NCBI GenBank assembly: GCA_036768485.1
Contig: JAVLUZ010000400.1
Coordinates: 62,001 to 126,000, forward strand
Source: Mermis nigrescens
Lineage: Eukaryota; Nematoda; Enoplea; Mermithida; Mermithidae
Length of the DNA stretch: 64,000 nt
Direction of reading: 5' to 3'
Part shown: in pieces, positions 956 through 51,372 of the stretch
Position numbering within the stretch: the first letter of the stretch is position 1
Layout: each line of letters starts with the position of its first letter
The notes under the pieces: model-generated
Databases searched by the model: none
The model's input: only the letters and a program-made list of their open reading frames with translations
What the model was told of the DNA's origin: nothing
Translations under genes and position numbers: made by a program

Positions 956-3162
956 CAGAGCAATGTTCGCCTATCTGATTGCGTATTTTTGGGCAAAATA
1001 ACCCATAATGGCATCATTAGACAAGTACTGGTAAAAAATTAAGCATTGTAACGACAGTGTAAAAAAAATCAGCATACTGTAGGTTGTGCGCTAAAATTTT
1101 GTACAAAGAATACCTACGTAAACCTAGCGTACTTTGAAAATTTGAGCCAAATCTGCCCTCTAGTCCTTGAAATATAGTGCTATATGAGAAAGTGTAAAGT
1201 AAACTGGTGTAATGTAGGCTGCGCGCTGAAATTCCATATGTAGCATGCCTTGCCTATATACATCATATCCTAACAATTTGAACAAAATCACAGCATTGGT
1301 CATTTAAATATGGTGCTATATGAGGAAGTGTAAAATAAAATCCGCATACTGTAGATCACGTGCTGTTAACAATAAGATGATACATGCCATATAAACCCAC
1401 CCTACTATGAAAATTTTATTCCAATCCGCCCTCTATTTCTAAGGTTATAGTACTATTTGAGCAAGTGTAAAGTAAATTGGTATACTGTAGGCTGCGCGCT
1501 AAAATTCTATGCATAGCATGCCTCGCCTCTATACATCATATCCTGAAAATCTGAACAAAATCCAAGCATTGGTTCTTGAAATATGCTGCTATATGATGAA
1601 GTGTAAACTAAAATCGGCATACTGTAGATTACATGCTGGTAACAATAGGATAACACATGCAACATAAACCCACCTTACTATGAAAATTTCAACCCAATCC
1701 GCCCTCTATTTCTGAAGTTATATCACTATTTGAGCAAGTGTAAAGTAATTTGGTATACTGTAGGCTGCGCGCTAAAATTCTATGCATAGCATGCCTCGCC
1801 TATATACATCATATCCTAGAAATCTGAACAAAATCCAGCCATTGGTTCCTGATTTACGTTCCTATATGAGGAAGTGTAAACTAAAATTGGCATACTGTAG
1901 ATTTCATGTTGATCACAATAAGATAACACATGCAACATAAACCCACCCTACTATGAAAATTTGAACCCAATCCGCCCTCTATTTCTAAAGTTATAGTACC
2001 AAATGATAAAGTGTAAAGTAATCTGGTATACTGTAGGCTGCGCACTGAAATTCTGTGCATAGCATGACTCGACTATATACATCATGTCATGAATATTTGA
2101 ACAAAATCCGGCCATTGGTTCTTGAATTATGCAAAAGTGTAAAGTAATGCTGGTATACTGTTGGTTGCGTGCTAAAATTTTGTACGTAGCATACCTAACA
2201 TATACTCAACAGACTCTGAAATTTTTAATCCGATCTGGCTGCTGGTTCTTGAATTATAGCTCTTTCAATTTTTCCCCCAGGGAAATTCCCCCTGGAAATT
2301 TGCCCCTCCCTTGGCCCTGGGCTTGCGTGCGCCCCCTCCCCGGGCAGGTCCGGGCAGGCCCCTATGCTACAACACAACCTATGCTGCAGCATTGCTCCCT
2401 GAAAAAAGCCAAGGAGTAGATTATGAGCCCCTCCGCCCATGCTATAACATAGGCGATGTTATAGCTTTGCCCCCTAGGGATACACGGTATACAACTGACA
2501 TCATAAGATTAATTGGCCGTGATAGTGCTAGTCTGTGTATGTATGTAGTTATAAATTTATTCTGGATTGATCAAATATGTGTGTATGTATGTATGCCCCA
2601 GAGCTTAAGCTGGCCCATCAACGTGCACTAATGGGTGACTGGGCAGCTATTGAATGTGCTATCCATGCAGCGCAAAAAAATATTTTCTAATGAGGAAGCA
2701 AATCTGCCAGACCATCTCAAATAAAAGTGCCTTCTAAAACCATCTACTACAGGTTGAAATGCGAGCAAAGCGCCAGCTTCCCATATCGATAAGCTTCCAA
2801 CTTGACTGCATATAATATCACATTGTGTGCTATATTGCCTGCAGTCTAGGCCGCTGGTTCTTGACTGCATATAATTTTACGTTGTGTGCTATATTGCCTG
2901 CAGTCTAGGCCGCTGGATTTTGACTGCATATAATTTTACATTGTGTGCTATATTGCCTGCAGTCTAGGCCGCTGGTTTTTGACTGCATATAATTTAACAT
3001 TGTGTGCTATATTGCCTGCAGTCTAGGCCGCTGGTTTTTGACTGCATATAATTTTACATTGTGTGCTATATTGCCTGCAGTCTAGGCCGCTGGTTTTTGA
3101 CTGCATATAATTTTGCATTGTGTGCTATATTACCTGCAGTTGACTGCAAATAATTACTGCCC
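956..3162 (+). repeat. Polinton (i) inverted-repeat arm, extra copy A, with right flank
   Basis: This is a second copy of the inverted-repeat arm found at 7.8-10.3 kb, in the same orientation. It lacks the inner part: similarity begins abruptly near 956. It contains nine tandem subrepeats of about 136 bp, each starting with GTGTAAA (near 1059, 1194, 1329, 1464, 1600, 1738, 1876, 2010 and 2137). A GC-rich stretch follows at 2270-2480, then about 300 bp of flank and a 59-bp satellite. The likely element terminus is at 2496 (...TATACAACT, preceding GACATC), by analogy with the AGT...ACT ends of the other two Polintons. The long frames at 2129-2631 are not genes. Confidence 0.8.
2802..3162. repeat. 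59-bp tandem repeat, six units
   Basis: Units starting TTGACTGCATATAAT begin at 2802, 2861, 2920, 2979, 3038 and 3097, exactly 59 bp apart. A truncated unit at 3140 ends ...ACTGCCC. The same array, with eight units, recurs at 9838-10316, beyond the presumed Polinton end. Confidence 0.9.
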
Positions 3163-3788: not shown

Positions 3789-5728
3789 GCATAGGGGCCT
3801 GCACGGACCTGCCCAGGGAGGGGGCGCACGCAAGCCCAGGGCCAAGGGAGGGGCAAATTTCCAGGGGGGGAATTTCCCTGGGGGAAAAATTGAAAGAGCT
3901 ATAATTCAAGAACCAGCAGCCAGATCGGACTAAAAACTTCAAAGTGGTAAGTATATGTTAGGTATGCTACGTACAAAATTTTAGCGTGCAACCTACAGTA
4001 TACCAGCATTACTTTACACTTTTGCATAATTCAAGAACCAATGGCCGGATTTTGTTCAAATTTTCATGACATGATGTATATAGGCGAGTCATGCTATGCA
4101 CAGAATGTCAGTGCGCAGCCTACAGTATACCAGTTTACTTTACACTCATTTGGTACTATAACTTTGGAAATAGAGGGCGGATCGGACTCAAATTTTCATA
4201 GTAGGATGGGTTTATGTTGCATGTCTTATCTTATTGTTATCAACATGTAATCTACAGTATGCCAATTTTAGTTTACACTTCCTCATATAGGAACGTAAAT
4301 CGAGAACCAATGGCTGGATTTTGTTCAGATTTTTAGGATATGATGTATATAGGAGAGGCATGCTATGCATAGAATTTTAGCGCGCAGCCTACAGTATACC
4401 AAATTACTTTACACTTGCTCAAATAGTGAAATAACTTCAGAAATAGAGGGCAGATTGGGTTTAAATTTTTATAGTAGGGTGGGTCTATGTTGCATGTGTT
4501 ATCCTATTGTTATCAGCATGTAATCTACAGCATGCCGATTTTAGTTTACACTTCATCATATAGCACCATATTTCAAGAACCAATGCTTGGATTTTGTTCA
4601 GATTTTCAGGATGTGATGTATACAGGCGAGGCATGCTATGCATAGAATTTCAGCGCGCAGCCTACAGTATACCAATTTACTTTACACTTGCTCAAATAGT
4701 ACTATAACCTTAGAAATAATGGGCGGATTGGAATAAAATTTTCATAGTAGGGTGGGTTTATGTTGCATTATCATCTTATTGTTTCAGCATGTGATCTACA
4801 GTATGCGGATTTTAGTTTACACTTCCTCATATAGCACCATATTTAAAGAACCAATGCTGTGATTTTGTTCAAATCGTTAGGATATGATGTATATAGGCAA
4901 GGCATACTATATATGGAATTTCAGCGCGAAGCCTATAGTACACCAGTTTACTTTACACTTTCTTATATAGCACTATATTTCAAGAACTAGAGGGCAGATT
5001 TGGCTCAAATTTTCAGAATACGTTAGGTTTACTTAGGTATGCTATGTACAAAATTTTAGCGCACAACCTACAGTATGCTGATTTTTTTTACACTGTCTTT
5101 ACAATGCTTAATTTTTTACTAGTACTTGTCTAATGATGCCATTAGGAGTTATTTTTGCCCAAAAATAAGCAACCAGTATAGGCGAACATTGCTCAAATTT
5201 AATTATCATGCAATTTTGAGCTTCTCAAAGTTTATCAGAAAATACCTGAAAAAGGGCGATGTTTGCCTGCTGTTCAACTTGTGGATATTTTTAAGCCCTG
5301 AAGCTAGGTTTTACTTTACAAACCTTCACACAAAATTCATTAATGAAAACATAACTTCATCCATGTCATCAGTATTGATCTAAAAATTTGTAAAGTTTGG
5401 AAAAATTTTTGTTAAGCTTAGAAATTTTTTTGTAAAATTTGGAATACTTTTTGTAAAGTTTGGAATATTTTTTGTAAAGTTTGAAAATTTTTCTGTAAAA
5501 CTTGGAATTAATTTTACATGCTTGAGCATAGTACTTTTGCAAAGTTTGGAATATTTTTTGTAGAGTTTGGAATATTTTTTATAAAATTTGAAATATTTCT
5601 AGTAAAATTTGGAATATTTTTTGTAAAATTCGGGAAATTTTCTGTAAAGTTCGAAATATTATGTATCTAATCCGCATTTCTCAAGCATTGTTGAAACTAT
5701 TTTATATGCTCTGTACAACTCATGCTCC
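3789..5728 (-). repeat. left inverted repeat (arm B) of Polinton (i)
   Basis: Reverse-complement copy of the right arm. From outside in it has the GC-rich block (3790-3870), nine 136-bp subrepeats seen as TTTACAC boundaries between about 4012 and 5093, a 250-bp spacer, and a run of about 20-bp units (TTTTTGTAAAGTTTGGAATA type) at 5385-5660. The innermost 70 bp (5656-5728) is an inverted copy of the 3' end of the TBP-like coding sequence at 7771-7840. The repeat boundary therefore lies inside a gene. Confidence 0.9.
5385..5660. repeat. short tandem repeat TTTTTGTAAAGTTTGGAATA
   Basis: A degenerate array of about 20-bp units, interrupted near 5513 by a segment containing ACATGCTTGAGCATAGTACT. 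The inverted partner array is at 7846-8070. A similar array with the same interrupting segment occurs in Polinton (ii) at 23,866-24,250. Confidence 0.85.
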
Positions 5729-5767
5729 CTCCTAAGTCAAGCAAAAAAACCTCAAAGAACCGCTATT

Positions 5768-6037
5768 ATGAATTCTGCTAGCAAGGATCAAATCCTTTGT
5801 CTCTGTGACTGTGCAAACAACTTTCTGAATGGTAATATTCCTTTTGATAAAAAGGATATGAATAAACTTCGAAGATATCAGAATCAAATAAGATACCTGG
5901 CAAACAATAAGCAAGTGACTACAAAACAAAAGAAATATATTATAATACAGGAAGGTGGTTTTCTTCCTCTTTCACTTACTCCCATACTTACAATAGCTGG
6001 TAGTTTGCTAGCTGATGCAATAGTTGGTAGTAAATGA
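5768..6037 (+). CDS. small Polinton-associated basic/hydrophobic protein (89 aa)
   Basis: An intact 89-codon frame starting at ATG. Its N-terminal half is polar and helical, with Cys-rich LCLCDC at residues 11-16 and NGNIPFDKKD around 22-31. A Lys/Arg-rich centre follows, then a sharp switch to GGFLPLS and a hydrophobic C-terminal tail of about 20 residues. Small proteins with an IP/VPL segment, a KKKxLIxQxGGF-like junction and a hydrophobic tail recur, in my knowledge, next to capsid and ATPase genes in invertebrate Polinton-like elements. I infer a small virion or membrane-active component by this association only. Its own sequence proves no function. A damaged second copy lies tail-to-tail at 6093-6350. 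This is the only unbroken gene of the element. Confidence 0.6.
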   Translation: MNSASKDQILCLCDCANNFLNGNIPFDKKDMNKLRRYQNQIRYLANNKQVTTKQKKYIIIQEGGFLPLSLTPILTIAGSLLADAIVGSK

Positions 6038-6092
6038 AACATACTGAAAAAATTATTTGTATACCTGCTGAAATCAGCGAGCGGACTAAACC

Positions 6093-6355
6093 TATTGTAA
6101 GTATGGGAGTAAGTAAAAGAGGAAGAAAACCACCTTGCCTTATTATAATATCTTTCTTTTGTTTTGTAGTCGCCTGCTTCTTGTTTGCCAGGTATCTTAT
6201 TTGATTCTTATATCTTTGAAGTGAAGTTTATTTATATCCTTTTTATCAAAAGGGATATTACAATTCAGAAAGTTGTTTGCACAGTCACAGAGACAAAGGA
6301 TTTGATCTTTGCTTGCAGTATTTATAATAGCGGTTCTTTGAGGTTTTTTTAGTCC
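6093..6355 (-). pseudogene. inverted second copy of the small hydrophobic-protein gene
   Basis: The reverse complement closely matches 5745-6005, including upstream CCTCAAAGAACCGCTAT and the GGxKTTFLPL-coding region. It carries small indels, one near 6215 in the KLxRYQ region, so the frame is broken. The open part from 6379 shares ASKDQILCLCDCANNF with the intact copy. The two copies are convergent, about 85 bp apart, and form a large potential hairpin. They probably arose by an inverted duplication within the element. Confidence 0.8.
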
Positions 6356-6553
6356 GACTAAGGAGATGTAAACAACCAATATTGCATGTTAATCGTTCTT
6401 TACCCATTTTTTCCCTTTTTTGTCACAATATCTCTACTAGTATTTATAGATTTCTGCATATAAAGAGTTGGATGCCTGCTAAAAATATTTGTTTTAAGCC
6501 TGATCTCGTCTCTAGCATTTTGAGTTAAATCAATTACAAGGTAACCATGTGAC

Positions 6554-6817
6554 CATACGTGGGCAGCAAGAAATTTCTGGGGGGTGCAAGATTTTTTTGA
6601 AGGTCAAAAAATGGCCTTAAAAACGATGGTATGGTGATAAAAACACCATTTTTCGACGTTTCTCATCAAGCACTATCCATTGGCATCAAAAAATTGCAAA
6701 AAAAGCGAAAAAAATTTTCAAAAATTGAATTCTGGGGGGGGGTATTTTGATTTCTGGGGGGGTATTTTGGTTTTCTGGGGGTGCATACCCCCCTGCTAAA
6801 CCCCACGCCCAGGTGTG
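6554..6817 (+). mobile_element. hAT-like MITE, copy 1
   Basis: A 264-bp repeat beginning CATACGTGGGCAGC and ending GCCCAGGTGTG. Its inverted ends are imperfect (CATACGTGGGC against CACACCTGGGC). It is flanked by a perfect 8-bp target duplication CATGTGAC (6546-6553 and 6818-6825). Duplications of 8 bp and short TIRs starting CA fit hAT-superfamily non-autonomous elements. The interior is G-run rich (TTCTGGGGGGGGTAT, GCATACCCCCC). It interrupts the ATPase pseudogene. Confidence 0.85.
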
Positions 6818-7299
6818 CATGTGACTGAGAAGTAGCATCAGAATAAGCTTGTGGAAAATATTTAGCGTTAGCAGGATAGAGCTGTCTGGAAAGCATTTGT
6901 GCCTGTAGCTGATCAGCAGGGTGTTTGAATAACTATGTAATCAGAGTTGATGCGTGAAGTTCTCAGATCATCAAAGAAAACGTTTTGAACAATGTGTATA
7001 ATGCTAATGTTTCAATGATGACAACTCCTTGTAAAAAGTTGCACAATCTGGGCATTACCCTTGCTCTGTTGCATAAGATCATCGAGAATCAAAAGTTGAG
7101 GCATATGACTAAACTGTTTTAGGTAATTAAAATCAGGAAGCCCTTCTATGAATAAATATCATTTAATTTTTTATAAAGAGGCTGGTTTTCCATGAAGCAC
7201 CACCAAATCTTTTTGATTTTAGTATCAATAGGCATGCTCTATTCTCAATTAATCGCTTGACAAATGTTGTTTTACCTGACTTTGTTGGTCCTGAAACAA

Positions 7300-7400
7300 A
7301 CAAAAAAATAAAATGTAAAATACAATACAATAAAAAATACAATAAAAAATAAAATACAAAATACAATATAAAATACAAAATACATAAAATACAAGCAAAG
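7300..7400. repeat. AT-rich simple repeat (AAAATACAAT type)
   Basis: About 100 bp of AAAATACAATA-like units between the divergent ATPase and TBP-like genes. It lies where the N-termini of both proteins should be encoded, so it seems to have expanded or been inserted there. Confidence 0.8.
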
Positions 7401-7415
7401 CAAAGACTGCACAAT

Positions 7416-7840
7416 ACAATTATTTGAGATTTCCAGGAATTGTATTTTGACTACCTCAGGCAACATTAGTGATTTTCGAATCGGGTAAAATTGTATGTGT
7501 TGGAGCTAAAACAGTGAAAGATGATGAAAGTGCTATAAAATCAGCTGTAGATGCATTAAATGCTAGAAGTGATGATTTAAAGGTGAAACCCCATATGTTT
7601 GCAGGTTCGGCAAATTTAGGGTTCCGCATTAATCTTTGCAAATTTTATGAGCTGGTGGAAAGAAAATGCATGTGTGAAGTAGAACTGTTCCCTGGCTTAT
7701 TATACAAATTCAGAAATATAACATTTTTGCCGTTCATCAGCGGAAAGTTGATCCTTAAAGGTGCAAAACAGGAGCATGAGTTGCACAGAGCATATGAAAT
7801 AGTTTCAACAATGCTTGAGAAATGCAGATTAGATACATAA
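7416..7840 (+). pseudogene. TATA-binding-protein-like gene, two saddle repeats
   Basis: The conceptual product shows the direct-repeat architecture of the TBP core. Repeat 1 has RFPGIVF, then VIFESGKIVCVGAKT; repeat 2 has ELFPGLLYKF, then FISGKLILKGAK. The four Phe residues that in TBP wedge into the TATA minor groove all have equivalents here: Phe of RFPG and of VIFESGK in repeat 1, and of ELFPG and PFISGK in repeat 2. The open part from 7469 has no ATG; the frame runs upstream through a TGA at 7448-7450. Upstream coding is lost in the simple repeat, so the copy is probably a pseudogene or encodes only the C-terminal 120 residues. It lies inside Polinton (i), divergent from the ATPase, and its last 70 bp belong to the right inverted repeat. 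A host TBP pseudogene is the alternative; the duplicated 3' end in arm B argues for residence in the element. Confidence 0.7.
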
Positions 7841-9403
7841 TATTTCAAACTTTACAAAAAATTTTACAAATTTTACAAAAAAATATTCCAAACTTTACAA
7901 GAAATATTCCAAATTTTACAAAAAAATTTCCAAACTTTACAAAAAATATTCCAAACTTTACAAAAAATATTCCTAATTTTACAAAAAAAAATTTTTAAGC
8001 TTCACAAAAAATATTCCAAATTTTACAAAAAAAAGTTTTTTAGGCTTTACAAAAAATATTCCAAACTTTGCAAATTTTCAGATCAATACTAATGACATGA
8101 ATGAAGTTATGTTTTCATTAATTAATTTTGTGTGGAAGTTTGTAAAGTAAAACATAGCTTCAGGGCTTAAAAATTACCACAAGTTGAACAGCAGGCAAAG
8201 ATCGCCCTTTTTCAGGCATTTTCTGATAAACTTTGAGAAGCTCAAAATTGCATGATAATTAAATTTGAGCTATGTTCGCCTATACTGGTTGCGTATTTTT
8301 GGGCAAAAATAACCCATAATGGCATCATTAGACAAGTACTGGTAAAAAATTAAGCATTGTAATGACAGTGTAAAAAAATCAGCATACTGTAGGTTGTGCG
8401 CTAATATTTTGTACAAAGCATACCTACGTAAACCTAACGTACTTTGAAAATTTGAGCCAAATCTGTCCTCTAGTTCTTGAAATATAGTGCTATATGAGAA
8501 AGTGTAAAGTAAACTGGTGTACTGTAGGCTGCGCGCTGAAATTCCAAATGTAGCATGCCTTGCCTAAATACGTCATATCCTAACAATTTGAACAAAATCA
8601 CAGCATTGGTTATTTAAATATGGTGCTATATGAGGGAGTGTAAAATAAAATCCGCATACTGTAGATCACGTGCTGTTAACAATAAGATGATACATGCAAC
8701 ATAAACTCACCCTACTATGAAAATTTTATTCCAATCCACCCTCTATTTCTAAGGTTATAGTACTATTCGAGCAAGTGTAAAGTAATTTGGTATACTGTAG
8801 GCTGCGCGCTAAAATTCTATGCATAGCATGCCTCGCCTATATACATCATATCCTAGAAATCTGAACAAAATCCAGCCATTGGTTCTTGATTTACGTTCCT
8901 ATATGAGGAAGTGTAAACTAAAATCGGCATACTGTAGATTTCATGTTGATTACAATAAGATAACACATGCAAAATAAACCCATCCAACTATGAAAATTTG
9001 AACCCAATCCGCCCTCTATTTCTAAAGTTATAGTTCTAAATGAGAAAGTGTAAAGTAATCTGGTATATCGTAGGCTGCGCACTGAAATTCTGTGCATAGC
9101 ATGACTCGACTATATACATCATGTCATGAATATTTGAACAAAATCCGGCCATTGGTTCTTGAATTATGCAAAAGTGTAAAGTAATGCTGATATACTGTAG
9201 GTTGCGCGCTAAAATTTTGTACATAGCATACCTAACATATACTTAACAGACTCTGAAATTTTTAATCCGATCTGGCTGCTGGTTCTTGAATTATAGCTCT
9301 TTCAATTTTTCCCCCAGGGAAATTCCCCTTGGAAATTTGCCCCTCCCTTGGCCCTGGGCTTGCGTGCGCCCCCTCCCGGGCAGGTCCGGGCAGGCCCCTA
9401 TGC
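7771..9403 (+). repeat. right inverted repeat (arm C) of Polinton (i)
   Basis: Partner of arm B. It contains the last 70 bp of the TBP-like frame, the 20-bp array (7846-8070), a spacer, seven 136-bp subrepeats (starting near 8369, 8503, 8639, 8776, 8912, 9047 and 9173) and the GC-rich block. It has two subrepeats fewer than arms A and B, which accounts for its shorter length. Similarity to the left arm ends at CCCCTATGC near 9403. Confidence 0.9.
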
Positions 9404-10316
9404 TACAACACAACCTATGCTGCAGCATTGCTCCCTGAGAAAAGCCAAGGAGTAGATTATGAGCCCCTCCGCCTATGCTATAACATAGGCGATGTTATAG
9501 CTTTGCCCCCTTGGGAGACATGGTATACAACTGACATCATAAGATTAATTGGCCGTGATAGTGCTAGTCTGTGTATGTATGTAGTTATAAATTTATTCCG
9601 GATTGATCAAATATGTGTGTATGTATGTATGCCCCAGAGCTTAAGCTGGCCCATCAACATGCACTAATGGGTGACTGGGCAGCTATTGAATGTGCTACCC
9701 ATGCAGCGCTAAAAAATATTTTCTAATGAGGAAGCAAATCTGCCAAACCATCTCAAATAAAAGTGCCTTCTAAAACCATCTACTACAGGTTGAAATGCGA
9801 GCAAAGCGCCAGCTTCCCATATCAATAAGCTTCCAACTTGACTGCATATAATATCACATTGTGTGCTATATTGCCTGCAGTCTAGGCCGCTGGTTCTTGA
9901 CTGCATATAATTTTACGTTGTGTGCTATATTGCCTGCAGTCTAGGCCACTGGTTTTTGACTGCATATAATTTTACATTGTGTGCTATATTGCCTGCAGTC
10001 TGAGCCACTGGTTTTTGACTGCATATAATTTTGCAGTGTGTGCTATATTGCCTGCAATCTAGGCCGCTGGTTTTTGACTGCATATAATTTTACATTGTGT
10101 GCTATATTGCCTGCAGTCTAGGCCGCTGGTTTTTGACTGCAAATAATTTTGCATTGTGTGCTATATTGCCTGCAGTCTAGGCCGCTGGTTTTTGACTGCA
10201 TATAATTTTACATTGTGTGCTATATTGCCTGCAGTCTAGGCCGCTGGTTTTTGACTGCATATAATTTTACATTGTGTGCTATATTACCTGCAGTTGACTG
10301 CAAATAATTACTGCCC
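9404..10316 (+). repeat. outer right end of Polinton (i) and duplicated flank, with 59-bp satellite
   Basis: Shared with 2380-3162 but absent from arm B. A potential hairpin (CTATGCTATAACATAG) near 9473-9490 and TTGCCCCC at about 9505 recall the ends of Polinton (ii), placing the terminus near 9532. Beyond it lie about 300 bp of flank and eight 59-bp units starting at 9838, 9897, 9956, 10,015, 10,074, 10,133, 10,192 and 10,251. The array ends at 10,316 with the same ACTGCCC truncation as copy A. Confidence 0.7.
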
Positions 10317-22050: not shown

Positions 22051-23865
22051 ATTCAAAGAAACGAGCGTTAAGAAATTGAATTTAAAAATCTTCTTGCTTC
22101 TACGTACCCAAGAGTTTTCGGCAGAATTCTAACTAGACGCACTAGACGGATAGACGAAACAAGATGCCCCTGCTCCATTGACGTAAGATCCACTATACTA
22201 CATCATATAAATTTATTATAAAAAGCACTATAATAAGAAAAAGGACATCAGGCGCTTTGATTGGTCACCGGTGGACGAAAAAAGAAGAGCAATTAATAAT
22301 GTGCAAATGCGCGCAAATAAGCACTTTGTGTAAAATAATGTAATAATGCATTTACAAAAGATCATCTCTACGAAAATCAGGCCTTATGTCAAAGCGTCAA
22401 AGTCTGCACCTTAAACATTACATTAATACCCTTATATGGGTTTATTGACAAATTAATCATTTAAGTGTTAAATAGCATCTCATGCATTACGTGTTGCATA
22501 ACACATGCGCGTTATTCATAGTTCACTTCAACAAATCTCAACAACCAACGTATTAAAAAACTTTAGAGCCAGATTCGTAATTTAGACGTAACAGACTACA
22601 TTTAAAAAAATTTAGCCATCCGCATGACTCTGGAGAAATTCTTACTTTTCAAGTTAAACTTGAAACAAGGACGAGTGTAAAAGAGATTTTATTTGGATTC
22701 GTAACCCTAATATTACCTTCAACATTTTTGAAAAAATTAACTCTTCACAATGTTCTGAAGACAAATAAATGTTACATGTAAACCACTTTACACTACTGTT
22801 GAGTCTAAACAAATGCGCTCAACTGACGCATAATGTTTGGATTTGACTCCTGATACATTTTCGAACTTGAGATTATGTTCAGACACATAACCGGAGACAT
22901 TGGTTGAAGAAACAAGACAGAAACATGTTTTGCACCTCTAATTTTTGGCTTTACACCCCCGAAGTAGATTAATGTTGATATAAATAAACAAAATTTTCTG
23001 TGGCGTGTACTGCTAAGAACGTGAGTAGTAATTGCCGGCAGGCTGGAGGGCAATGCTGTAGCATAGCCCATGTTATAACATAGGCGATGACGTTAAAATC
23101 TGCTCCCTGAGGTCAGCTGAGGGAGCAACCTTAAAGTATGGAGAATATTCAGGACGGGGAGGGGTGTGCGTAAGGGGGCCCCCACAGCGCCGCCTGTTAT
23201 AGCATGGTCTATCTTGCAGTGTTTGTCCTCAGGTTGCATGGTCGATCTGGGGGTAGTGTCAGTGAATTTTTTTGCTAAAATAAATGCTAAAATAGCATAA
23301 AAACTATCTTTCTGGTCAATTTCAAGGATTTCCGTACTATTCGCCCTATTTTATCTAGAAATTTTCCATGCTGAGATGCCCCCTCTTGCATGTCTTGTTG
23401 TTATTCAATTATTTACTCTTCGAAGAAAGCACGTACACAACAAGTCACGAATAAATGAGCGATGTACAACTAATTTTGCTAAAATTATAGTATAAAAGAG
23501 GCAGCCATATAGATCAGCGAATACATCGGATATGCTAAACCTTTGCAAATGTGATCTCATTCGCATGTTTGATAAAGAGAAATACGATGTGACAAATCGT
23601 CGCAGGTTGAACATGAAAAAATTCGTAGTAATTTCGAGTGTTTTTTTGAGGATTTTTGAGCATCTCATCCGTAGATGCATAGCAGGGCGGCTTTAGGGGT
23701 CGGCCAGAGAGCTTCAGTCTCAAAAATAGGCATAAATTGATGGTCATTGCATCAAAAAACTTTAATTTCCTACTATTCCAAGGAACTTTTCCATTTAAGT
23801 CCCCTCCCGTGTATGTCTCGTCTCCCACTCATTTGCATGGGTCTGTATACTACCGAAAACTTCTG

Positions 23866-24250
23866 AAAAATTTTTGTCAAATTGCGAAACATTTTTGTCA
23901 CGTTGTGGAAATTTTTTGTCACGTTGTGGAAATTTTTTGTCATATTGTGAAAATTTTTTCTCACGTTGTGAAAATTTTTTGTCAAGTTGTGAAATATTTT
24001 TGTCACGTTGTGGAAATTTTTTGTCATGTTGTGAAACTTTTTGTCAAGTTGTGAAATATTTTTACATGCTTAAGCATAGTACTTTTGTCAAGTTATGAAA
24101 ATTTTTTTTTCAAGTTGTGAAATTTTTTTGTCAAGTTGTGAAAATTTTTTGTCAAGTCATGAAATATTTTTGTGATGTTGTGACATTTTTTTTGTCAAGT
24201 TATGATAATTTTTTGTCAAGGTGTGAAATATTTTTGTAAAGTTGCGAAAA
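23866..24250. repeat. short tandem repeat TTTTTTGTCAAGTTGTGAAA
   Basis: About 20-bp units (TTTTTTGTCACGTTGTGGAA type) repeated some 18 times, interrupted near 24,060 by ACATGCTTAAGCATAGTACT. Frames through it are repeat artefacts. It matches the layout of the 20-bp array in Polinton (i). Confidence 0.9.
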
Positions 24251-24436
24251 CATTTTGTAAATTTTTTGAGTTTTATTGAAAGTATCATATTTTACGAGTA
24301 TTTTGCTAAAATAATAGAAATATATCAATAAGACAAAAAAAGAGAGAAAAGGAAAATATAGATGAAAAATCTGAGTTTTCAGCACTCAACTCCGTTGTCT
24401 CACGCCCTAAAAAATTAAAATTGCTTCAATTCTGCA

Positions 24437-24849: not shown

Positions 24850-25954
24850 GCACCCTACAATCAAAATCCGAACGGTAAAGTACAATAATATTGGGCCAAA
24901 GAACGTTTATCATACACAACCTTATACTCCTTTTTGTACACCGCGTTAAGAACGTTTCTCATATTATCCCTGATAATTTTCTTTTCCAAAACTGTCTTTA
25001 TGATCTCTTTTCCTGATTAGAAACCGATGAATATTTGTTTCATTATATCGAAATCGATCTCTTTTCTAGTGTTGAACGTTAAACGGAACCCCCGAATTTT
25101 ATGAGTCTGATTTACGATATTTTTCCCGTCAATAGTAACCCTGTACACGTAATTTTTTGGCCCTCCCGCTACAAATTACATATGTAAGCCCCATCCCCGT
25201 AACCGCTAAGCTCGTCGGTCATATTGCCCAAGTAACGGCCTATCGGAACCGTATAATTATCGTTTTTTTCGAGTCAAATAAATAATTGAATCTATGTTGA
25301 AATAAATTACACGCTTGTCTAATTTTTCTGAATATTCACACAATTTAAGTCTAGCTTGTGCTGTTACCGGATTTGTGTTATTCAATGCTTCTAAAAATTC
25401 GTCTTCTACGACATAAGTTGTTCATTCCATGCGCTCGCCTAAAAACTGTACAGTGCTATTTTTTTCGTAGGATCGAACATTAAGTTTACAAATTTTTCCG
25501 GCTCGGTGAAATGTTCTACCTGAGATAAATTATTGCGCTGTCCGAATTTTCCGCAAAAAGAGTTTGACATGAGTTTAGTTAAAGCGCGCATGCCTGAGTT
25601 TTTCTCAATTTTCTGCCTGTCTAACCGTATACCCTCGAGATCATTGTATTGTCTAATATATCCATCTTTTTCCGCTTCCATTGTACATCCTTTTGGCCAC
25701 CCGTTCGCCTGTTGCTTCAATCGTAAAAAGGTGTTTATATACTCGGTGAAAAGTCTGCCCTCTTTGGTCGTAGGGTCGCATTTTTCGATTTCTGTATAGT
25801 GCCAAACTTCGTGGATTTTTGTTACTGTGTAGCCTTTCTCGATTGCTTTGTACAACTCTAAAGAAACCCAGGCGCTTGTGATTGATCTATCTTCGTCTGA
25901 ATGCTCACAGACGTCCTGCTTTTCTAAAACACAGGTCCGGCAGAGGGGGAACAA
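24850..25954 (-). pseudogene. Polinton protein-primed DNA polymerase B fragment
   Basis: The open 5' part (25,954-25,439, 171 codons) starts with a Cys-rich block, FPLCRTC. It continues through EVWHYTE, FTEYINTFLRLKQQANGWP and SFCGKFGQRNN, the palm/fingers region of Polinton PolB. Downstream, through several frameshifts and stops, further conserved blocks can be picked out to about 24,850: RVIYFNIDSIIYL at the catalytic YxDTDS site (changed to FNIDS, so inactive), a GGPKNYVYR segment and a VYDKR segment near the end. The exonuclease domain and everything before it are missing. The fragment reads inward from the right TIR. Confidence 0.85.
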
Positions 25955-27225
25955 TAATTTGCCGAAATTCGCCCAGATCGACCATGCAAGCTGAGGAACA
26001 ACACTGCAAGATAGAGCATGCTATAACAGACGGCGCTGTGCCCCCCCTTACGCAGACCCCCTCCCTGTCCTTAAGGTTGCCCATACTTTAACGTTGCTCC
26101 CTCAGCTGACCTCAGGGAGCAAGATTTTTACGTCATCGTTTATCTTATAACATAGGCTATCCTACAGCGTTGCCCTCCAGGCTGCCGGCCATTGCTACTA
26201 ACGTGCTTCATTTTCATTCCATTTGACTTATCCCGACTTCTAAGCGTTGAAATTGACAAACGAAGAAATGGACAAAAACATATTTTTTACACTATCTACC
26301 AGATTGTAAATTTTAAAAATCTAAAAATAACTTCGCATCGAATTAAAATAAATTCAAGTTCAATTGGTTTCTAGCCCTTGAGTCGTTGTACTTTTGTGTA
26401 TAGAAATCTTGCTCCTCATATACTGGAGAAATTAATGACCAATCAAATAAGGGAAGAAAACGTGATCTTTCGCCCTTCTTGTTCCTCCGATTTGGAACTT
26501 AACACCTCCGGGAGTGACTCAATATTACGTTTTTTAGACCGCAATTTGCAGCTACATGTATCCCTTGAAGCCTACTTAATTTTTATTCTAATAAATTTGT
26601 TCCGACTTAAAATCGGAGAAGTTGGCTGAGAAATCTTAGTCAAAGCCTGTTTTTTGCACCATGCCTTACATTGCAAACTTTGAGCCCCTGAATCCAACTA
26701 AGTATTAGGTGTAAAAGAGTTTGCAGTTAAACCGGAAGTAGCCGTCGAGTCGTAGTATGATAAGCCGTCGAGTCGTAGTATGTTTATAACAGAAAAAATT
26801 TCTTGAAATTCATGACCGGAGTCGGCACAAAAGACAAAAAAGGGCCGAAATAAGTTTTTTTTCAACAACAGATTTTTACACCCTTTACACTGCCCCTCCA
26901 GGAATAAGTCTCGTTTCAAAAAAAATAAAAAAGTGCTATCGAGCTTGTTTAATTGTCTGCATTTCAAAAAATCAGATTAATAAGAATGCAAACCTGATTT
27001 AGATAAGTACGGTGGCCCTCCAAAATTTCAAAAACTATATGTTATAACGTTACTATAAAACTTTACACGCTCTTCGCTAATCGGGCGAAATTGTAAAAAA
27101 AGGGTACCAAATAATTTTTGATTATCTGTCTTTTTTTAAAAACCGCACAATACAGGAGTGTCCCGGAGATGATCGCTTTTAGGGGTACCCAAGTAGATTA
27201 TAAGTACATGCTGAGGATCTATGTG

Positions 27226-29337: not shown

Positions 29338-29612
29338 CCCACACGTGGACTTGGAGTGGGGATTCGGGGGTATACGACCCCTGAAGGCCGAATACCCAAT
29401 ACCCTAAAAAGCGAAATACTCCTCCTCCTAATCCCCAAAATTTTTTTAATAATTTTTTCGTTGTCTTTTCGCGATTTTTTAATGCCAATGGATTGTGCAT
29501 GCTGAGAAACGTTGAAAAATTGTGTTTTTGCCATACAACTATTTTTAAGACCATTTCTTGACCTTTAAAAAATGTTGCAACCTTTATCAGAATTTGGGCT
29601 GCCCGCCTATGC
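29338..29612 (-). mobile_element. hAT-like MITE, inverted copy
   Basis: Reverse-complement match to the MITE at 6554-6817 (CACGTGGACTTGG ... GGGCTGCCCGCCTATG on the + strand), with the usual AAAATGGTCTT, CGACGTTTCTCA and G-run blocks. The frame 29,318-29,698 is within it. No target duplication could be read. Confidence 0.7.
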
Positions 29613-30028: not shown

Positions 30029-30275
30029 CATAGCTGGACGCCCCTAAAGTTCTAGGGGAAGGTGCAAATTTGTTTCAAAGATCAAGAAATGGCCTTTAAA
30101 ATGGTTTTATGGCAAAAAAACACAATTTTTATACATTTCTCATTAGGCACTATCCATTAGCATCGAAAATTTGTTTAAAAAATAAAAAAAATTCCAGAAA
30201 TTGAATTCTGGTTTCTGGGTGGGTCATTTTGGTTTCTGAGGGTTTATACCCCTAATCCCCCACGCAGCAGGTATG
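30029..30275 (+). mobile_element. hAT-like MITE, copy with 8-bp duplication
   Basis: Starts CATAGCTGGACGCCCC and ends ACGCAGCAGGTATG. It is flanked by a perfect 8-bp duplication TGCATAGC (30,021-30,028 and 30,276-30,283). Internal blocks match the copy at 6554. Confidence 0.8.
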
Positions 30276-41047: not shown

Positions 41048-41179
41048 TAAATTGTTTTAAATCAAATTGGCGCAAAATAAAATCAGATCCGTGGATTTTG
41101 CAAACTATTTTGGGCTATGAAATCGAATTTAATTCTTAACCGCGGGAGCTGGCTTCCAAACCAATTAAATTTTCAATAT

Positions 41180-41790
41180 TAGAAACGGATGTGATTCAAA
41201 AGAAATTAATGCACTGCTAGAAAAGGAAGCGGTCTCTCGATTTTCAGATACGAAAGATATTTGGATTTCCCGAATTATTTTCCCGGCCAAGAAAACAGGA
41301 GGCTTACGGCCACTTATAACTCTACGACCATTAAATCAATATATTAAATACGAACATTTTAAAATGGAAACTATAATTGTTATTAAAGATAATCAACGAG
41401 GAAATGATTTAATGGCGAAACTCGATTTAAAAGATGCGTATTTTTTGATTCCTATAATCGAAAAACATCAAAAGTTTTTCTAAGTTGAATGGGCACACGT
41501 CATTTACTCATTCACTTGTATGCCCTCTGGTCTTTCTTTGGTTCCCCTTGTATTTACTAAATTATTAAAATCCTTCAGTGCTTCGCCAGACATTTATGCT
41601 TACGACTCATCATTTATTTAGATGATATTTTGCTACTGAACAAACACAGGATGGCCTTTGGCATGACTTATGTCTCTTGCGATTTATTTTACGGAATCTT
41701 GGCTTCGTTATCAACAAAGGAAAGTCGGTTACTGAGCCCACACAGGCTATCATGTTTCTCGGATTCTCCGTAGACTGATCTTCAATGCAG
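41180..41790 (+). pseudogene. DIRS reverse transcriptase fragment
   Basis: Recognisable RT blocks are scattered over shifting frames: a LRPLNQYIKYEHFKMET-like segment near 41,330, MAKLDLKDAYFLIPI (palm motif A) near 41,420, FTCMPSGLSLVP near 41,515 and the catalytic LDDILLLN-type motif near 41,618-41,640. There are several in-frame stops. Confidence 0.8.
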
Positions 41791-42700
41791 TTTTACATTA
41801 CCGAAGAAAAAATAAGTAAAATAGTTAACATGTGTAACTTATGCTTACAGGCGAATTTCGTTATACTGAGAGACTTGGCCACACTTTTAGGCCATTTCAC
41901 TTCAGTCAGTCAAGCAATTATTCAGGCTCATTTATTCAGTCGCCATCTCCAACTGTGTTTGATTGACATCATTCTAGATCACATTTCTTATAGCGCGCCT
42001 CGCATTCTTTCAGCGAACGCGAAAAGTGAATTAATTATGTGGGTAAAACAGCTAAGAAATTGGAACGGTCGTGAAATCGTACCACCTGACAGCAGTTTGA
42101 TATTTTTTCGGACGCATCCAACACGGGATGGGGTGCTTACTGTAATCACGAGTCTGCATCTAGATACTCGAAAATATACGAACTACCTTTGCATATTAAT
42201 TGTAAAGAGCTATTAGCAGCATTTTTTGCTTTAAAAATATTTGGTAAAAATTGTTCCAAAACAATTGTCTCTCTTATGTTGGATAATTCTGTTTCCATAG
42301 CTTGTTTAAATAAAATGGGTTGCAGGAAAAACAACTTTTTATGCGATACTGCAGTGCGTATTTGGAGCTGGTGTCTCGATAGGCAGGTTAATCTGCAACC
42401 ACATTTTTTGCCCGGTTGCCAAAACTTACGAGCGGATGAGGGTTCGCGTACACAATCTGATAGTTCTGATTGGAAACCTAATTATTCAATATTTCACAAC
42501 GAGAGATGGGTCCACTGAAAATCGATCCCTTTTCAGACCGAATCAACGCTCAGTTGCCAAAATTTGTCTCTTGGCGCCACGACTCAGACATTAAGAAAAA
42601 CATTGATGCGTTCAGTTTTTCGTGGAAAAACCTATTAGGGCTGTACGACGCGTTAACCACCATTCTGCATGGTGTCACGCTTTCTGCGCAAAATCTGAAT
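41785..42700 (+). pseudogene. DIRS RT C-terminus and RNase H
   Basis: The frame 41,785-42,216 covers the thumb/connection (FVILRDLATLLGHFTSVSQA, RNWNGREIVPP). The frame then shifts, and 42,189-42,518 continues the RNase H (INCKELLAAFFALK, MLDNSVSIACLNKMG, NLRADEGSR). A third frame from 42,506 carries DRINAQLPKFVSWR. These are the DIRS-type RNase H landmarks, each broken from the next by a frameshift. Confidence 0.85.
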
Positions 42701-42879
42701 AGAAAAGTGCGATCTGCTAATAATCATTCCTGTGTGGCCAACTCAACCAAGGTGGCCCCTACTGTTGTCTCTAGCGGTCAAAAATCCCATCCTCCTTCCA
42801 CATCACAGAAAAATTCTATAGATCCAAACAGGTCAAGCTCATCCGCTCATAAGCAACAGCAGCCTAAGATTATCAGCCT

Positions 42880-43905
42880 GGAAAGTGTCGGGCAAGCATA
42901 GTCGGCCCGAGTTTTATCAAGGTCAGCTTTCGACCTTGTTTTACAATTTTGGGCAACAGGTACCAAATACCACTACAATACGGCCACCAAAAACTGGCAT
43001 AGCTGGTGTACTGAGCGTAAAATTAATCCGCTTCACACGTCTACAGTAGATGTGGGTATTTTCTTGCCGACCTATATAATTTAGGTTATAAATATCGAAC
43101 CATTTCAGGAATGCGAAGCGCTGTGTGTGCATTTCTTTGCGATTTTAAGGAAACCTGAAACAGTAATCATCTTTGACCACGCGTCATGAAAGGTATTTTT
43201 CGTGCTGACCCTCCACTACCTCTCTCTGCTGACACGTGAAATGTTGACATCATAATTATAAATTTTTTGAAAGGATTATACCTTGATAATGCTGATTTCA
43301 GTCACATATAAATAATTGAAAATTACTATCGCTTTGAAACCGTTATGTTGTTGGCCTTGTGTAGCGCCCGAAGATGTCCCGAGTTTGCAAAATTAGATGT
43401 AAATTATTTGCGAATTTCCGATAATTATATTTCGTTTACGGTATCCGAAATGACTAAAGCTCGTCATTTTGGTCCTCAGCTTATGCAGCAAGTCTTTCGT
43501 TTCTCCGAAAAAAGCGTCTGCCCGTATCACCATATCCATTTGTATTTAAATATGACTAAAATGTATACCAAAAGGAACTTGTTTCTATCTTTCATCAAAT
43601 CATAAAACGAAATAAAAACGACATCGGTTCCAAGATGGGTTCAAGAAACACTTAGACTAGCAGAAATTGATTGTGATAAATTTAAGGCCCACTCCGTTCG
43701 ATCAACTTCTTCTTCGAACGCCGCAAAAAGCTGGGTGAGTATTCCAGATATTTTGAAAAACGCTAACTGGTCTCACAAATATACTTTTTTCAAATTTTAT
43801 AATCTAAATATTGAAGATAATTCTAAATATGCTAATGTCATCCTCTCACAAAAAATATGCAATCGCTTTGAACATGCATATATAAAGTCTAATTTGTTTT
43901 TGTAG
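42880..43905 (+). pseudogene. DIRS tyrosine recombinase
   Basis: A degenerate N-terminal SAM-like part lies at 42,880-43,340. The catalytic part opens with LLALCSARRCPEFAKLDVNY (43,345; contains the first catalytic Arg) and runs to 43,605. After a stop and frameshift, RWVQETLRLAEIDCDKFKAH and HSVRSTSSSNAAKSW give the HxxR pair, and FFKFYNL the catalytic Tyr (about 43,790). The catalytic residues survive although the frame does not. Confidence 0.85.
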
Positions 43906-45907: not shown

Positions 45908-47235
45908 AGTAGTATTGCAACCCTGGGGACAGTTACAGAACTCTTAGTTCGGGAACTAGGTTCGGGAACTTTTTTCCTGTGTTATAGTATAGGCGGATGT
46001 GTGTGGCAGCTGGAGGAGGGGGTTAAAATGTGCGCCCTGGCTCTGAGAATGTGCGCCCTGAGGAGGTTACCTGTGCTATAGGAGTACTTCCGGGATTATA
46101 GGCGGGGTTGAGGGGTGCGCCCTGGGTATTTTGCCCAAAATAGTTATCCCTGAAGGATGGAAAATCCGGGAGATTTTTTAAATAGTTGTTCCTGGGAATG
46201 GAGTACTTCCGGGACTCTACCTAAGGAGTGCCTGGATATTCACTATCAAAGCTAAGGCATACCCGGAGGGCCCTGAAAAGAGGGTTTCTCATCATTTTTT
46301 TGATTTTTATTCACAGTAACAGTTGGTTCCGAAACAACATTGGCAGTTTGTGTGTGTAGGTGTGCGTGTGTGTGTGAGTGTATGTGTATGTGTGTGTGTG
46401 TGTGTAAGTGTGTAAAAAATGGTGGTTTTCCACCGCTAATAACCTGCTAGTTTGGCCGTTCAATGCATATAGACTAAAACATCATGATTATAATAACCTA
46501 TAAACAGACACAATTAGGTAGTAATATCGCGCATTGGCGAAGCAGTGTTACCATAGGTGGGCAGCACCGAAATTCTGGGATGGGGTTAAAAAAATTTCTG
46601 GGGAAGGAGTGTGAAAAAAATTTTAATGGTCGAAAAATGGTCTTAAAAGTGTTTGTATGGTGATTAAACACCATTTTTGACGTTTCTCATCGAGCACTAC
46701 CCAATGGCATTAGAAAATCGCTAAAAGAGCTGAAAAAATTCAAAAATAGAATTCTGGGGGTATCTTGATCTCTCGGGGTATTTCAACTTCTTGGGGGTGC
46801 ATACCCCCCAAACTACCCACGCCCACATGTGAGTGTGACGCATTAGTAATATAGTGCATCGACTAAGCAATTTTTTTGCAGCTGGTAAAATCGCGCATTG
46901 GCAGCCTGTTGGGAATTTATCAACTAATAATAAGCGCATTGGCGAAGCATTTTTTATGATACAAATTTATCGACACATTTTGTTGACTAGCGCATTGGCG
47001 AAGCAGTTTTTTAGAATAGGATTAAAAAGAATAGAATTAACGATAAATTGATAATTCTGAGGCGGCTCTAGCAATGCATCAACATGCCTAAATTTGGAAT
47101 ATTGTTTGGAAAGTCATCAAAGCTCTCTTTACAGTATTTTGGAGGAAAAAACTTACTGCTCGTGGGGCATTTTTGTAATCAGATCATAATGATGATTATT
47201 AGCAGCATGTAAATGAGTCACCTTAGGATTTCATT
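45908..47235 (+). repeat. left TIR of Polinton (iii)
   Basis: Matches the complement of 52,505-53,701. Differences are a 280-bp MITE at 46,552-46,831 and a shorter TG microsatellite (about 60 bp, 46,349-46,410). The inner 80 bp (47,150-47,230) is an inverted copy of PolB N-terminal coding sequence present at 52,510-52,590. Confidence 0.9.
46552..46831 (+). mobile_element. hAT-like MITE inside the left TIR of Polinton (iii)
   Basis: Starts CATAGGTGGGCAGC and ends GCCCACATGTG. Flanks are AGTGTTAC (46,544-46,551) and AGTGTGAC (46,832-46,839). The opposite TIR has an empty site with a single GTCACACT (52,899-52,906), so the duplication and element limits are directly confirmed. Confidence 0.9.
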
Positions 47236-47649
47236 TTTTATAAAACGAATGGTGGGAAGAATGGTCAGAGTGACCAAAAGAGCAATGCAGCTCAGAATTT
47301 CATTAGAAATGGCACTAAGCTCTTCTTTATGTAACTATTTTGCGTTAATTTGTGATGAATCTTTAAAGAGGTTTTTCATGCAGGGGCAAAATTCATAGAC
47401 TCGAGTTTTGGTAAGCCTGTTGTCAAATTTCTCCAATTAGCAACTTAAAAATTACAGCATTCTCTTGAGATTATGTTTTGGACTGCTCTTGGAAGCCTGC
47501 TATGATCTGCTAAATTATGACAAACGACCATAGACTCATTAACATAATGATCACAATATGGATCAACCCCATATGAGATATGTAAGAGCACTAACAATAA
47601 AATCATTTTTGTATTATATGCTAGACGGGTTTTATTTATAGTCTATTGG

Positions 47650-48125
47650 CGTCTAAAATGCAATTTTACAATAGTTTTCCCAAATTCAAAAGGTACAGGG
47701 TGATCTTGATCCGTTTTGGTATTCATTTCGATTGTCTCAAATAATTTTTTTAACACGGATATATAGTTTGGACTAATATATTAATGGTTTACAATATTCA
47801 TGTGTTTTCCTTTAATGTTTACAACCAGCAAAAGTGGCATAAAAACATTTCCAACAATCTGAGGCTCAACTATGTCACAATATATGTAAAAATTGTGCAT
47901 TCCGCCTAGCATGTCAGGAGAGTGGTGGGCAGCTATAGTCAGTTCTTGTGCAACAGTATGCTTTATACTTTTAAGCTGACTATCTAGAAATCTGAACATA
48001 TATGTCAAATGATTCGTTAGCCTCAAGCTTTTATTGTATGTAGTGTTAATTACTAAGTGGCAAAATTTCTTATTTTTGTCATACTTAAAAGTCAAGGACT
48101 CAATATATTCAAATTTTTCTTTCAA
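47650..48125 (-). pseudogene. Polinton penton (minor capsid) protein remnant
   Basis: The open part 48,125-47,781 contains FYIYCDIVEPQIVGNVFMP followed by LLLVVNIKGK. Beyond a frameshift near 47,770 lies a PVPFEFGKTIVKLHFR-like end at about 47,680-47,650. These are landmarks of the Polinton single-jelly-roll penton protein. It follows the protease and capsid genes on the same strand. Part of the N-terminus and a loop are lost. Confidence 0.7.
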
Positions 48126-48459
48126 ACTAACTGTTTTAAAGCATTGTTGATAGTTTGAATAAGATCATGTATATTTATATATCTTTCTAAAGAATTAGCA
48201 TTTTTTGTCGCACATTGTTTTCAAAATCATAAAACTGTATCATCTTTTGATTCTCTGCAACATTATTTCATGTATTGGCATAAATTATTTCAGCCAAACC
48301 AACTTCCTATTCGCCAGATAATCAAATTTGCCTTAGCAGGCTGGTTACAAATGTAGCCGCAGTATTCACTTCCTGTGAATTGCTCGGAAGCATTAAATAG
48401 AATGGTTTGGTATCCATTTTTATAATTAAGCTTATCAAAGTGTTTATAAATTTTTCTCA

Positions 48460-48845
48460 GAGCATAGATAGTACAATATTTTTGAAGGGGATATCATTAC
48501 TCTTGCATAACAGGAAGAAGATGCACATATGCCCACAACTAACAGAAAAAAAGCCTTGTGTTTGGACATTATTGTGCATATAAATGAGTGCATTATTAGA
48601 AATATAATGCTTTAATTGTACAGGTGGCTCTAACCCATAGCTATCAAAATAGTCAGTGTTTCTTGCTTACAAAATACAAAGCAACTCAATGTGAACAAGG
48701 TTTATTGCTAGCATTCAAATTAACCACTATAGCTGCAGGATAAGTTTTCATAGGTGGTGAGCGATCTGACGGAATAACGCCCAAAAAAATATATCGATTT
48801 TGTGGTTACCTTTAAGAATTTTGAATACTTCGATAGTATTCATGT
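48460..48845 (-). pseudogene. Polinton adenain-like cysteine protease remnant
   Basis: It starts at an ATG overlapping the end of the capsid gene near 48,842. The catalytic His region follows at about 48,690 (SH followed by a stop, then VALYF; the usual Trp codon is TGA). The catalytic Cys region lies near 48,530 (CGHMCIFFL). This order and spacing fit the Ulp1/adenovirus-type maturation protease of Polintons. Several frameshifts and stops rule out function. Confidence 0.68.
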
Positions 48846-49760
48846 TTTTGCACTATAGTCATTAAATCTGTTTCGATTTTTAACAATCATTATTAAATTA
48901 TCAAATTCAGCATATATAATGATTTCTATACTAGAATCAGGCAATTTGTCAGCAAACCTTACAGTTATGCTTTTGTTCCCTCATGCAATAGATCCCAATG
49001 TCCTCCATCATCTGCATTAGGTGTCAAGTCAAATACAAAAAAGCAGTGACTGGTTTTAAACTCATGTCTGCTAATGAAATTACCTTCACGACCTATATCG
49101 AGTGCATCACACATTTGATTATAGTCTTGCAAGTACCTATTGTGTTTGATTGCAATGCCAAGTGGATAAGCGGGATAGGTTATACCCCTACACGTTACTT
49201 TTGCATCATATATGCCAAATGGTATAAAATTGAATGGCGATTTCGCTAAGTTGCCTTGATAGTTATTACCTTCGACACAAGCAAATGCAATATGTCCAGG
49301 TGGCTGACAATGTATAATTTGGCGTATCACTAGTAGGGTTTGAAATGTACAAGTTTGTCTTAGCTACGCGCCTTATAGGATATTTGGCTGTGTATGAAAG
49401 CATTATTTGCTCTAGAGCTAAATTTACAGTGTCCAAAACCTCAACTTTTGTATGAAAAATTTCATTTGAGAGACTTTCAAATCTATGTTAACATCTTCAA
49501 AACACTGCAAAGCAAATGAATTACTATTGCTGCGTACTTCTAAGCAAAAATCGGTAAAATTAACTATATACCTATCTTGCAAGAACATATGAATATGAAG
49601 TGGAGCTGCAACTTCTACAAAATTTTCATCTTTAAATATAGCAGCTCGCTTTTTGAATGATTCACCATCTTTTGTATCAACATTAGTGCCACTGTCATGT
49701 AAATATAATGATGCCTGTAATTGTGAATGTTTTGCATCAAATCCATAATTTAACTCAGTT
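48845..49760 (-). pseudogene. Polinton major capsid protein (double jelly roll) remnant
   Basis: The clearest part is the open frame 49,330-48,965, with LAKSPFNFIPFGIYDAKV, GREGNFISRHEF and CFFVFDLTPNADDGGHWDLL. Upstream, in other frames, lie KDENFVEVAAPLHIHMFLQ-like N-terminal sequence (about 49,640) and ISNPTSDTPNYTLS. Downstream a frameshifted end (IYAEFDNLI) reaches about 48,850. The KxPFNF and FDLTPD signatures belong to the Polinton double-jelly-roll capsid family. At least three frameshifts are present. Confidence 0.82.
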
Positions 49761-50399
49761 TCAAAATATGATCTATATAAACTGTTAAACCGAATCTAGC
49801 CTATAATAATTGCTCATTTTTGACCCAAAATAGTTCCAAATAGCAGTGCCAAAAAAATTTGCATTTTGTAATAAACAACATAAAATATGCTGGAAAATAC
49901 ACTGACTACCCTCCATTTTTTGTATTTCAAAATGAAATCGAAAATTACTATTTATATTTTTCTTAGATCAAGGACCCAAGAATCAAATTTGGGCGAGTAA
50001 CCTCGCCAATGTACCAAATAATCACTTTTGTTGCCGCCTTTCCGAGTCTCCAGAATTTTTTCAACAATGAATAAATCTTCAGGTTAAACGATGGAAAATG
50101 CCTCCTAATTTTACGCCCATTTGGTCCTCTAAAACATATACTGGTAGGGTTCTAGCGTATCTCTCTTTAACAATAAAAAAATTCTTCGGTCCAATTAGGC
50201 CAGTATCCTTTTGCAAAAGTGCGCTTAACTTTACTTAGTCATACCTTATTGCCAACATTAAACTTAAATACTGCATCTTATTTTGTAATGCGAAAGGCTT
50301 GATTTAAAATTTCTTGTATGTTTTTTGGAACAACGTTTAACGGAAATATACCTATAGTTCAATGCATAGAATGATTATAATTATACATTAGACTGTATA

Positions 50400-51090: not shown

Positions 51091-51140
51091 TTGCCATAGG
51101 CTGAACAGCTGATCCATTTTCTTTTCAAACATACAATCTT

Positions 51141-51335: not shown

Positions 51336-51372
51336 GTTTTCAAGAGATTAACGCTAGAAAGTAGGTTCATAT

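Follow-up and report, generated by a model that had tools for sequence, protein, structure and literature searches.

Remains of a TATA-Binding-Protein-Family Gene Beside a Packaging ATPase in a Polinton-Derived Remnant of Mermis nigrescens

Introduction

Polintons are elements of about 15–20 kb, which are reliant on the polymerase of their host. TATA-binding proteins (TBPs) encoded by viral genomes are documented in several groups. In mirusviruses, whose genomes extend to over 430 kb, a TBP is found in 59% of genomes, versus 0% of Nucleocytoviricota for the same gene cluster (PMC10132985). The nimavirus TBP is wsv303 (PMC10871703), a megavirus encodes a TBP together with its own RNA polymerase (PMC11464507), and the algal virus CpV-BQ1 has a TBP and a TFIIB that, as its authors propose, redirect the Pol II of the host (PMC12085832). 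Endogenous elements of green algae, which are without a DNA polymerase, a packaging ATPase or a double jelly-roll capsid gene, carry TBP sporadically (PMC10675990). Precedents for TBP also exist among predicted giant-virus structures.

For Polintons, the words TATA and TBP occur nowhere in the main text of seven papers on these elements (PMC4642659, PMC8097293, PMC10120064, PMC10328495, PMC6431247, PMC11071296, PMC11071308), and no report of a TBP in a Polinton was found in the portion of the literature searched, which included full-text queries of polinton with “TBP-like,” “TATA-box-binding” and “TATA-binding protein.” Here, we analyze a locus in a 64,000-nucleotide stretch of the Mermis nigrescens genome (“the window”), for which a sequence-only reading had proposed a TBP-like gene inside a Polinton-type element. 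Our preferred explanation, held with modest confidence, is that the locus preserves the remains of an accessory TBP-family gene of a Polinton-type (Maverick) lineage, which would have acted as an element-encoded TBP; this reading rests on one dead copy.

The TBP-Family Reading Frame

The TBP-family frame occupies positions 7451–7840 of the plus strand (129 codons followed by TAA) and comprises the C-terminal part of the first saddle repeat and the whole second repeat. The gene had originally been placed at 7416–7840, but in-frame reading from 7416 does not give the TBP frame. The predicted match to a TBP profile is borne out: PF00352 (Pfam) recognizes the frame with 79.9 bits against a cut-off of 22.9 (E 1.3e-22). 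In addition, 35 distinct PDB sequences match it at E ≤0.001, the top one being an archaeal TBP (1mp9, 7.9e-20), and ten NCBIfam TBP models match with E values from 5e-19 to 7e-12, all of them under their own curated cut-offs. When the window was searched in six frames with a TBP profile built on 46 proteins other than the window frame, the frame scored 6e-24, and besides it no match was better than E 0.74. This 0.74 match is a plus-strand piece at 7394–7447, which is colinear with the eukaryotic NAEYNPKRF region of the profile and lies directly upstream of a TGA read at 7448–7450 (plus strand). We accept the piece as TBP despite its E value of 0.74 when taken alone, since it adjoins the main part, is colinear with it and shares its reading frame. 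The predicted structure has the TBP fold, and its second repeat superposes on yeast TBP with 1.1 Å over 80 residues. The membership of the frame in the TBP family is near certain.

All motifs previously pointed out at this locus are present in the DNA: VIFESGK, ELFPG and FISGK within the frame, and RFPG in the piece upstream of the TGA. The same is true of the four wedge phenylalanines, whose codons lie at 7430, 7475, 7688, and 7733, the first of them upstream of the TGA; we take these to be F99, F116, F190, and F207 in yeast numbering. By alignment, Phe 116, 190, and 207 as well as E186, E188, and L189 are kept in the frame, and we assume that in yeast TBP these correspond to DNA wedges and to the TFIIB stirrup, respectively. 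The central DNA-contact asparagine (yeast N159) is a methionine, and the TFIIA-contact lysines 133, 138, and 145 are altered, at positions that fall in a poorly aligned helix. Since the central Asn and the TFIIA lysines are changed, classic TATA recognition may not hold. This combination raises the idea of a decoy, i.e., an element TBP that kept its TFIIB contact, lost its TFIIA contacts and central Asn, and might have sequestered the initiation factors of the host instead of opening the element’s promoters. The retained E186, E188, and L189 and the changed K133, K138, K145, and N159 would agree with it; however, the uncertain alignment of the helix affects precisely the lysines, and all of the changes may be decay. 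We consider the decoy highly doubtful.

The proposal of two saddle repeats holds for the second repeat, which is whole. The first is partial: it is without its first strand and helix, some 30 N-terminal residues are missing (yeast residues ~61–90), and it holds the TGA, which splits RFPGIVF from the remaining frame. The “two saddle repeats” are therefore a complete second repeat and a portion of the first. A low-complexity stretch of AAATAAAATACAAT lies between the ATPase and TBP genes (7294–7394, Tandem Repeats Finder), and in its reading frames neither the N-terminus of TBP (~30 residues) nor the first residues of the ATPase are recognizable. Given the in-frame TGA and the N-terminal loss, the TBP copy at this locus is a pseudogene.

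The Packaging ATPase and Its Neighborhood

The divergent packaging ATPase expected beside the TBP gene is indeed there: an A32-like gene, nearly full length but broken, occupies 6439–7321 of the minus strand (delimited by relatives and tblastn). A search with four ATPase pieces in order returned 49 candidates, 29 of them at E ≤0.001; the closest is 67% identical (E 2.5e-60), PF04665 (Pox_A32) is carried by 11 of the 29, and tblastn finds a match in the window for 27 of the 29. The recognizable pieces change frame along the gene (7297–7217, 7229–7155, 7152–6928 with one stop, 6932–6789, and 6579–6439), and the damage consists of frameshifts, the one stop, and one insertion. A start near 7321 is indicated by the relatives, and the recognizable part begins at 7303. 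It thus lies head to head with the recognizable TBP end at 7394, on the opposite strand and about 90 bp away, and this spacing counts in favor of a TBP gene resident in the element.

The insertion is a dispersed repeat of ~270 bp near the 3′ end of the ATPase gene (6555–6825, blastn), with CATGTGAC on both sides of it. Four longer related stretches occur elsewhere in the window (29366–29582, 30046–30242, 46621–46839, and 54997–55254), besides one short one (blastn). Copies of this 200–270-bp repeat have TGGGCAGC / CCCACGCCCA near their ends, and CATGTGAC flanks the copy in the ATPase gene.

On the far side of the ATPase gene, a small plus-strand reading frame with a GGFLP motif (5729–6034) presumably resembles the pX type of Polinton gene. 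An inverted second copy, 85% identical, follows on the minus strand (6047–6365), with the center of the palindrome near 6047. No credible family match for this gene was found in Pfam, PHROG or NCBIfam.

Inverted Repeat and Element Architecture

The 3′ end of the TBP gene had been assigned to the element’s own inverted repeat, and the repeat itself is confirmed: 7771–9166 aligns with 5728–4296 at 88% identity. The right arm (7771–10316, plus strand, delimited by alignment and tandem repeats) comprises the TBP 3′ end, 21-bp repeats at 7839–8074, 273-bp repeats, a GC-rich piece and 59-bp repeats. The left arm (3789–5728, minus strand), which is 88–89% identical to the right one and truncated at 3789, comprises the TBP 3′ end, 21-bp AT-rich repeats, 273-bp tandem repeats and the GC-rich piece. 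The final 70 bp of the TBP gene thereby recur in inverted orientation, and tblastn finds the last 24 TBP codons at the inner edge of the left arm (5662–5733, minus strand, 79% identity, E 2e-8). The first 100 columns of the repeat, which include the TBP end, are 92% identical between the arms, and later stretches range from 81 to 96%. Since arm similarity continues unaltered past the TBP stop codon, the TBP end and the arm share a history, and an inverted repeat that runs through the stop codon fits a TBP gene that was part of the element.

The second half of the claim, that the arms are the terminal inverted repeats (TIRs) of a Polinton, is not established, because the outer 2.2 kb of the arms also stands by itself at 958–3160 (plus strand, 92–93% identical to 8267–10176), with no TBP/ATPase core, the left arm is truncated, and no target-site duplication was seen at the inverted arms. 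The arms may instead be a local inverted duplication. In six reading frames of the 3.1-kb core (5195–8266) that were compared with Pfam, no polymerase, integrase or double jelly-roll capsid gene was recognized. Capsid genes diverge fast. Elsewhere in the window, outside the TBP/ATPase core, there are a PolB fragment and a weak match to RVE. As these six core frames gave neither a protein-primed PolB nor an RVE integrase, we name the locus a Polinton-derived remnant rather than a Polinton.

The same arrangement could have arisen if rearrangement had brought a divergent TRF-type paralogue of the host TBP, whole or in part, next to a Polinton remnant and a local inverted duplication had then carried a copy of its 3′ end over to the left arm; in that case the element would never have used the TBP. 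The outer repeat without a core at 958–3160 would suit such a history, as would the fact that one copy is known. However, the TBP gene itself contains the inner boundary of the repeat, and this portion is as similar between the arms as the rest, and the short head-to-head spacing would suit a compact viral genome. We regard displacement of a host paralogue as rather unlikely, and the residence of the TBP gene in the element lineage as probable.

The surroundings are rich in nested repeats. The 2.2-kb repeat consists of 273-bp tandem units, the GC-rich piece and 59-bp tandem units, and is present in three copies within 10 kb, one lone and one truncated. A second Polinton-like element lies at 46500–52950, with inverted arms (46885–47151 and 52588–52854, 87% identity) that were extended outward by eye and a weak RVE integrase match at 50537–50890 (E 0.005, below cut-off); its right arm and the TBP element’s 21-bp AT-rich repeats have a 24-bp motif in common. 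A DNA polymerase B fragment at 25442–26020 (DNA_pol_B_2, E 5e-7) is possibly a third Polinton remnant, and 1.2 kb from it a 21-bp tandem array (23864–24258) is related to the array beside the TBP gene. The window further contains a retroelement, presumably DIRS-like, at 41169–43905 (weak RNase H-like match, E 0.01, with further frames downstream) and a mariner-type DDE transposase at 63187–63927 (DDE_3, E 9e-7).

Divergence and Constraint

The TBP frame is 33–34% identical to five animal TBPs (42–44 of 128–129 positions), which are very alike one another over the compared region, and 34–36% identical to three archaeal TBPs. Identity to human TBPL1 is 23% (29 of 127 positions) and thus below that to the animal TBPs, which speaks against the displaced host paralogue discussed above.

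Conservation is unevenly distributed along the frame. It keeps 29 of the 46 columns that are conserved at ≥95% among 46 TBPs, with one further such column deleted, and has the majority residue in just 15 of the 81 other columns. In a neutral simulation (1000 runs), in which an animal TBP was decayed to the identity of the window frame, 35% of the conserved sites were retained, with a maximum of 55%. The simulated sequences had 4.4 stops on average; 1.1% of the runs had no stop, and 6.5% had none or one. The stop count is weak evidence alone, since a share of 6.5% of neutral runs has at most one stop and it was its openness that drew attention to the frame. It is the pattern of conserved sites, more than the stop count, which implies long divergence as a working TBP and late breakage.

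A recent host TBP pseudogene was ruled out by the identity of ~33% to the five animal TBPs compared, together with constraint outside the range of the neutral runs. A recent processed pseudogene in particular would explain that the sequence is broken and TBP-like; yet the animal TBPs to which it is ~33% identical are themselves very similar here, and neutral decay to such identity loses conserved sites that are retained in the window. Its probability appears negligible.

Searches for Relatives

With the window TBP as query, a search of 5.8 billion proteins, which is blind to relatives sharing few 5-residue words, gave 13 candidates, none of them at E 1e-3. The protein database without a TBP match nevertheless holds 13 relatives of the ATPase that are ≥50% identical, of which the four on the longest contigs lie on 4–7 kb of sequence; two further ATPase relatives (45% identity) in the 5.8-billion-protein database are on contigs of 13 and 16 kb. 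That ATPase relatives lie on contigs of 4–7 kb, but no close TBP was found, counts against a common gene. In a TBP profile search, the best 120 of at least 7998 scored proteins were ordinary TBPs, 31–39% identical to the window. Scans of IMG/VR with the window TBP, a profile containing it, the ATPase piece, the PolB piece or pX yielded no relatives, and a PolB-motif pattern yielded one IMG/VR locus, in which the 7.3 of 38 kb examined had no TBP, ATPase or pX match. Prokaryote genomes contributed two Thermoplasmata TBPs, and in phages no TBP relatives were found. A second Polinton with a TBP was thus found neither among the 5.8 billion proteins nor in IMG/VR, and the single decayed copy counts against a TBP resident in the element.

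When IMG/VR was scanned with the window-free TBP profile, 12 loci were obtained. None of the 12 was matched by the ATPase or pX pieces, and of the five with listed ORFs, four (L001, L006, L008, L009) look archaeal-virus-like and one (L011) giant-virus-like by their neighboring genes. The TBP tree comprised 23 sequences and 128 columns, with four of the 12 viral TBPs left out as duplicates (L003, L012), for a wrong frame (L006) or for poor alignment (L009). The window TBP sits on a very long branch (1.9 substitutions per site), and its node support is 0/44. Among eight constrained alternatives in the AU test, grouping with the giant-virus L011 was the only one excluded, and weakly so (p 0.046). 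Grouping with eukaryotic TBPs as a whole was kept (p 0.372), as was grouping with animal TBPs (0.154) or with TBPL1 (0.105), and the same holds for archaea (0.586) and for archaeal viruses (0.315). The tree and AU test thus do not separate host, archaeal-like and other origins, and the captured host gene of the sequence-only reading is one candidate origin among several.

For the displaced host paralogue, the retention of animal TBPs and human TBPL1 among these groupings is a point in its favor. The tree also touches on a composite origin, in which the TBP would stem from another integrated DNA virus (giant-virus-, mirus- or nimavirus-like) and the locus would combine two viral insertions. Such viruses encode TBPs, and the abundance of nested repeats at the locus would be in keeping with a composite. 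On the other hand, grouping with L011, the sole giant-virus TBP in the tree, is the one rejected, if weakly; no other large-virus gene was recognized in the frames searched with Pfam; and the IMG/VR TBP loci, lacking ATPase and pX matches, look mostly archaeal-virus-like in the five cases with listed ORFs. A second virus as the source thus seems improbable.

Proposed Role in the Element

The preferred reading, an accessory TBP gene of a Polinton-type lineage, would have the following consequences for an intact element. Transcription of the TBP gene would point toward the end of the element, with the packaging ATPase behind it. Its product most likely would bind and bend A/T-rich promoter DNA via the phenylalanine wedges, while its second stirrup would bring in host TFIIB and RNA polymerase II. 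The element might thereby control its own promoters, a putative role suggested by the residues retained. A bolder proposition is that a Polinton lineage in this genome encodes its own TBP beside the packaging ATPase, so that its promoters would depend on an initiation factor made by the element, with host Pol II carrying out the transcription; we put this forward tentatively, at somewhat below even chances.

To our knowledge, such Polintons would be the smallest virus-like elements to carry a TBP. Should TBP prove to be a genuine accessory gene in some Polintons, promoter recognition would have been taken over by virus-like elements of 15–20 kb as well as by giant viruses, mirusviruses and nimaviruses. 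This would bear on how larger relatives of Polintons acquired transcription genes, and would provide a test case for a TBP specialized on the promoters of one element. More generally, it is possible that some virus-like transposons formerly encoded a protein for promoter recognition themselves.

Comparison With Known Systems

With eukaryotic and archaeal members of the TBP family, the window sequence shares motifs of both saddle repeats (the first repeat being partial), the wedge phenylalanines, the SGK loops and the E-x-E-L of the TFIIB stirrup, but it differs from them in its ~33% identity, the lost N-terminus, the in-frame stop, and the changed central Asn and TFIIA lysines. With Polintons/Mavericks and adintoviruses it has in common the A32-like packaging ATPase, whose relatives are up to 67% identical, and presumably also the pX-like neighbor. 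The TBP itself sets the locus apart from Polintons as described in the main texts of the seven papers cited above. In this respect it resembles large DNA viruses, i.e., mirusviruses, giant viruses, nimaviruses (wsv303) and CpV-BQ1, in which a viral genome has its own TBP-fold protein. Unlike Polintons, these viruses have large genomes, and some, such as a megavirus, encode their own RNA polymerase.
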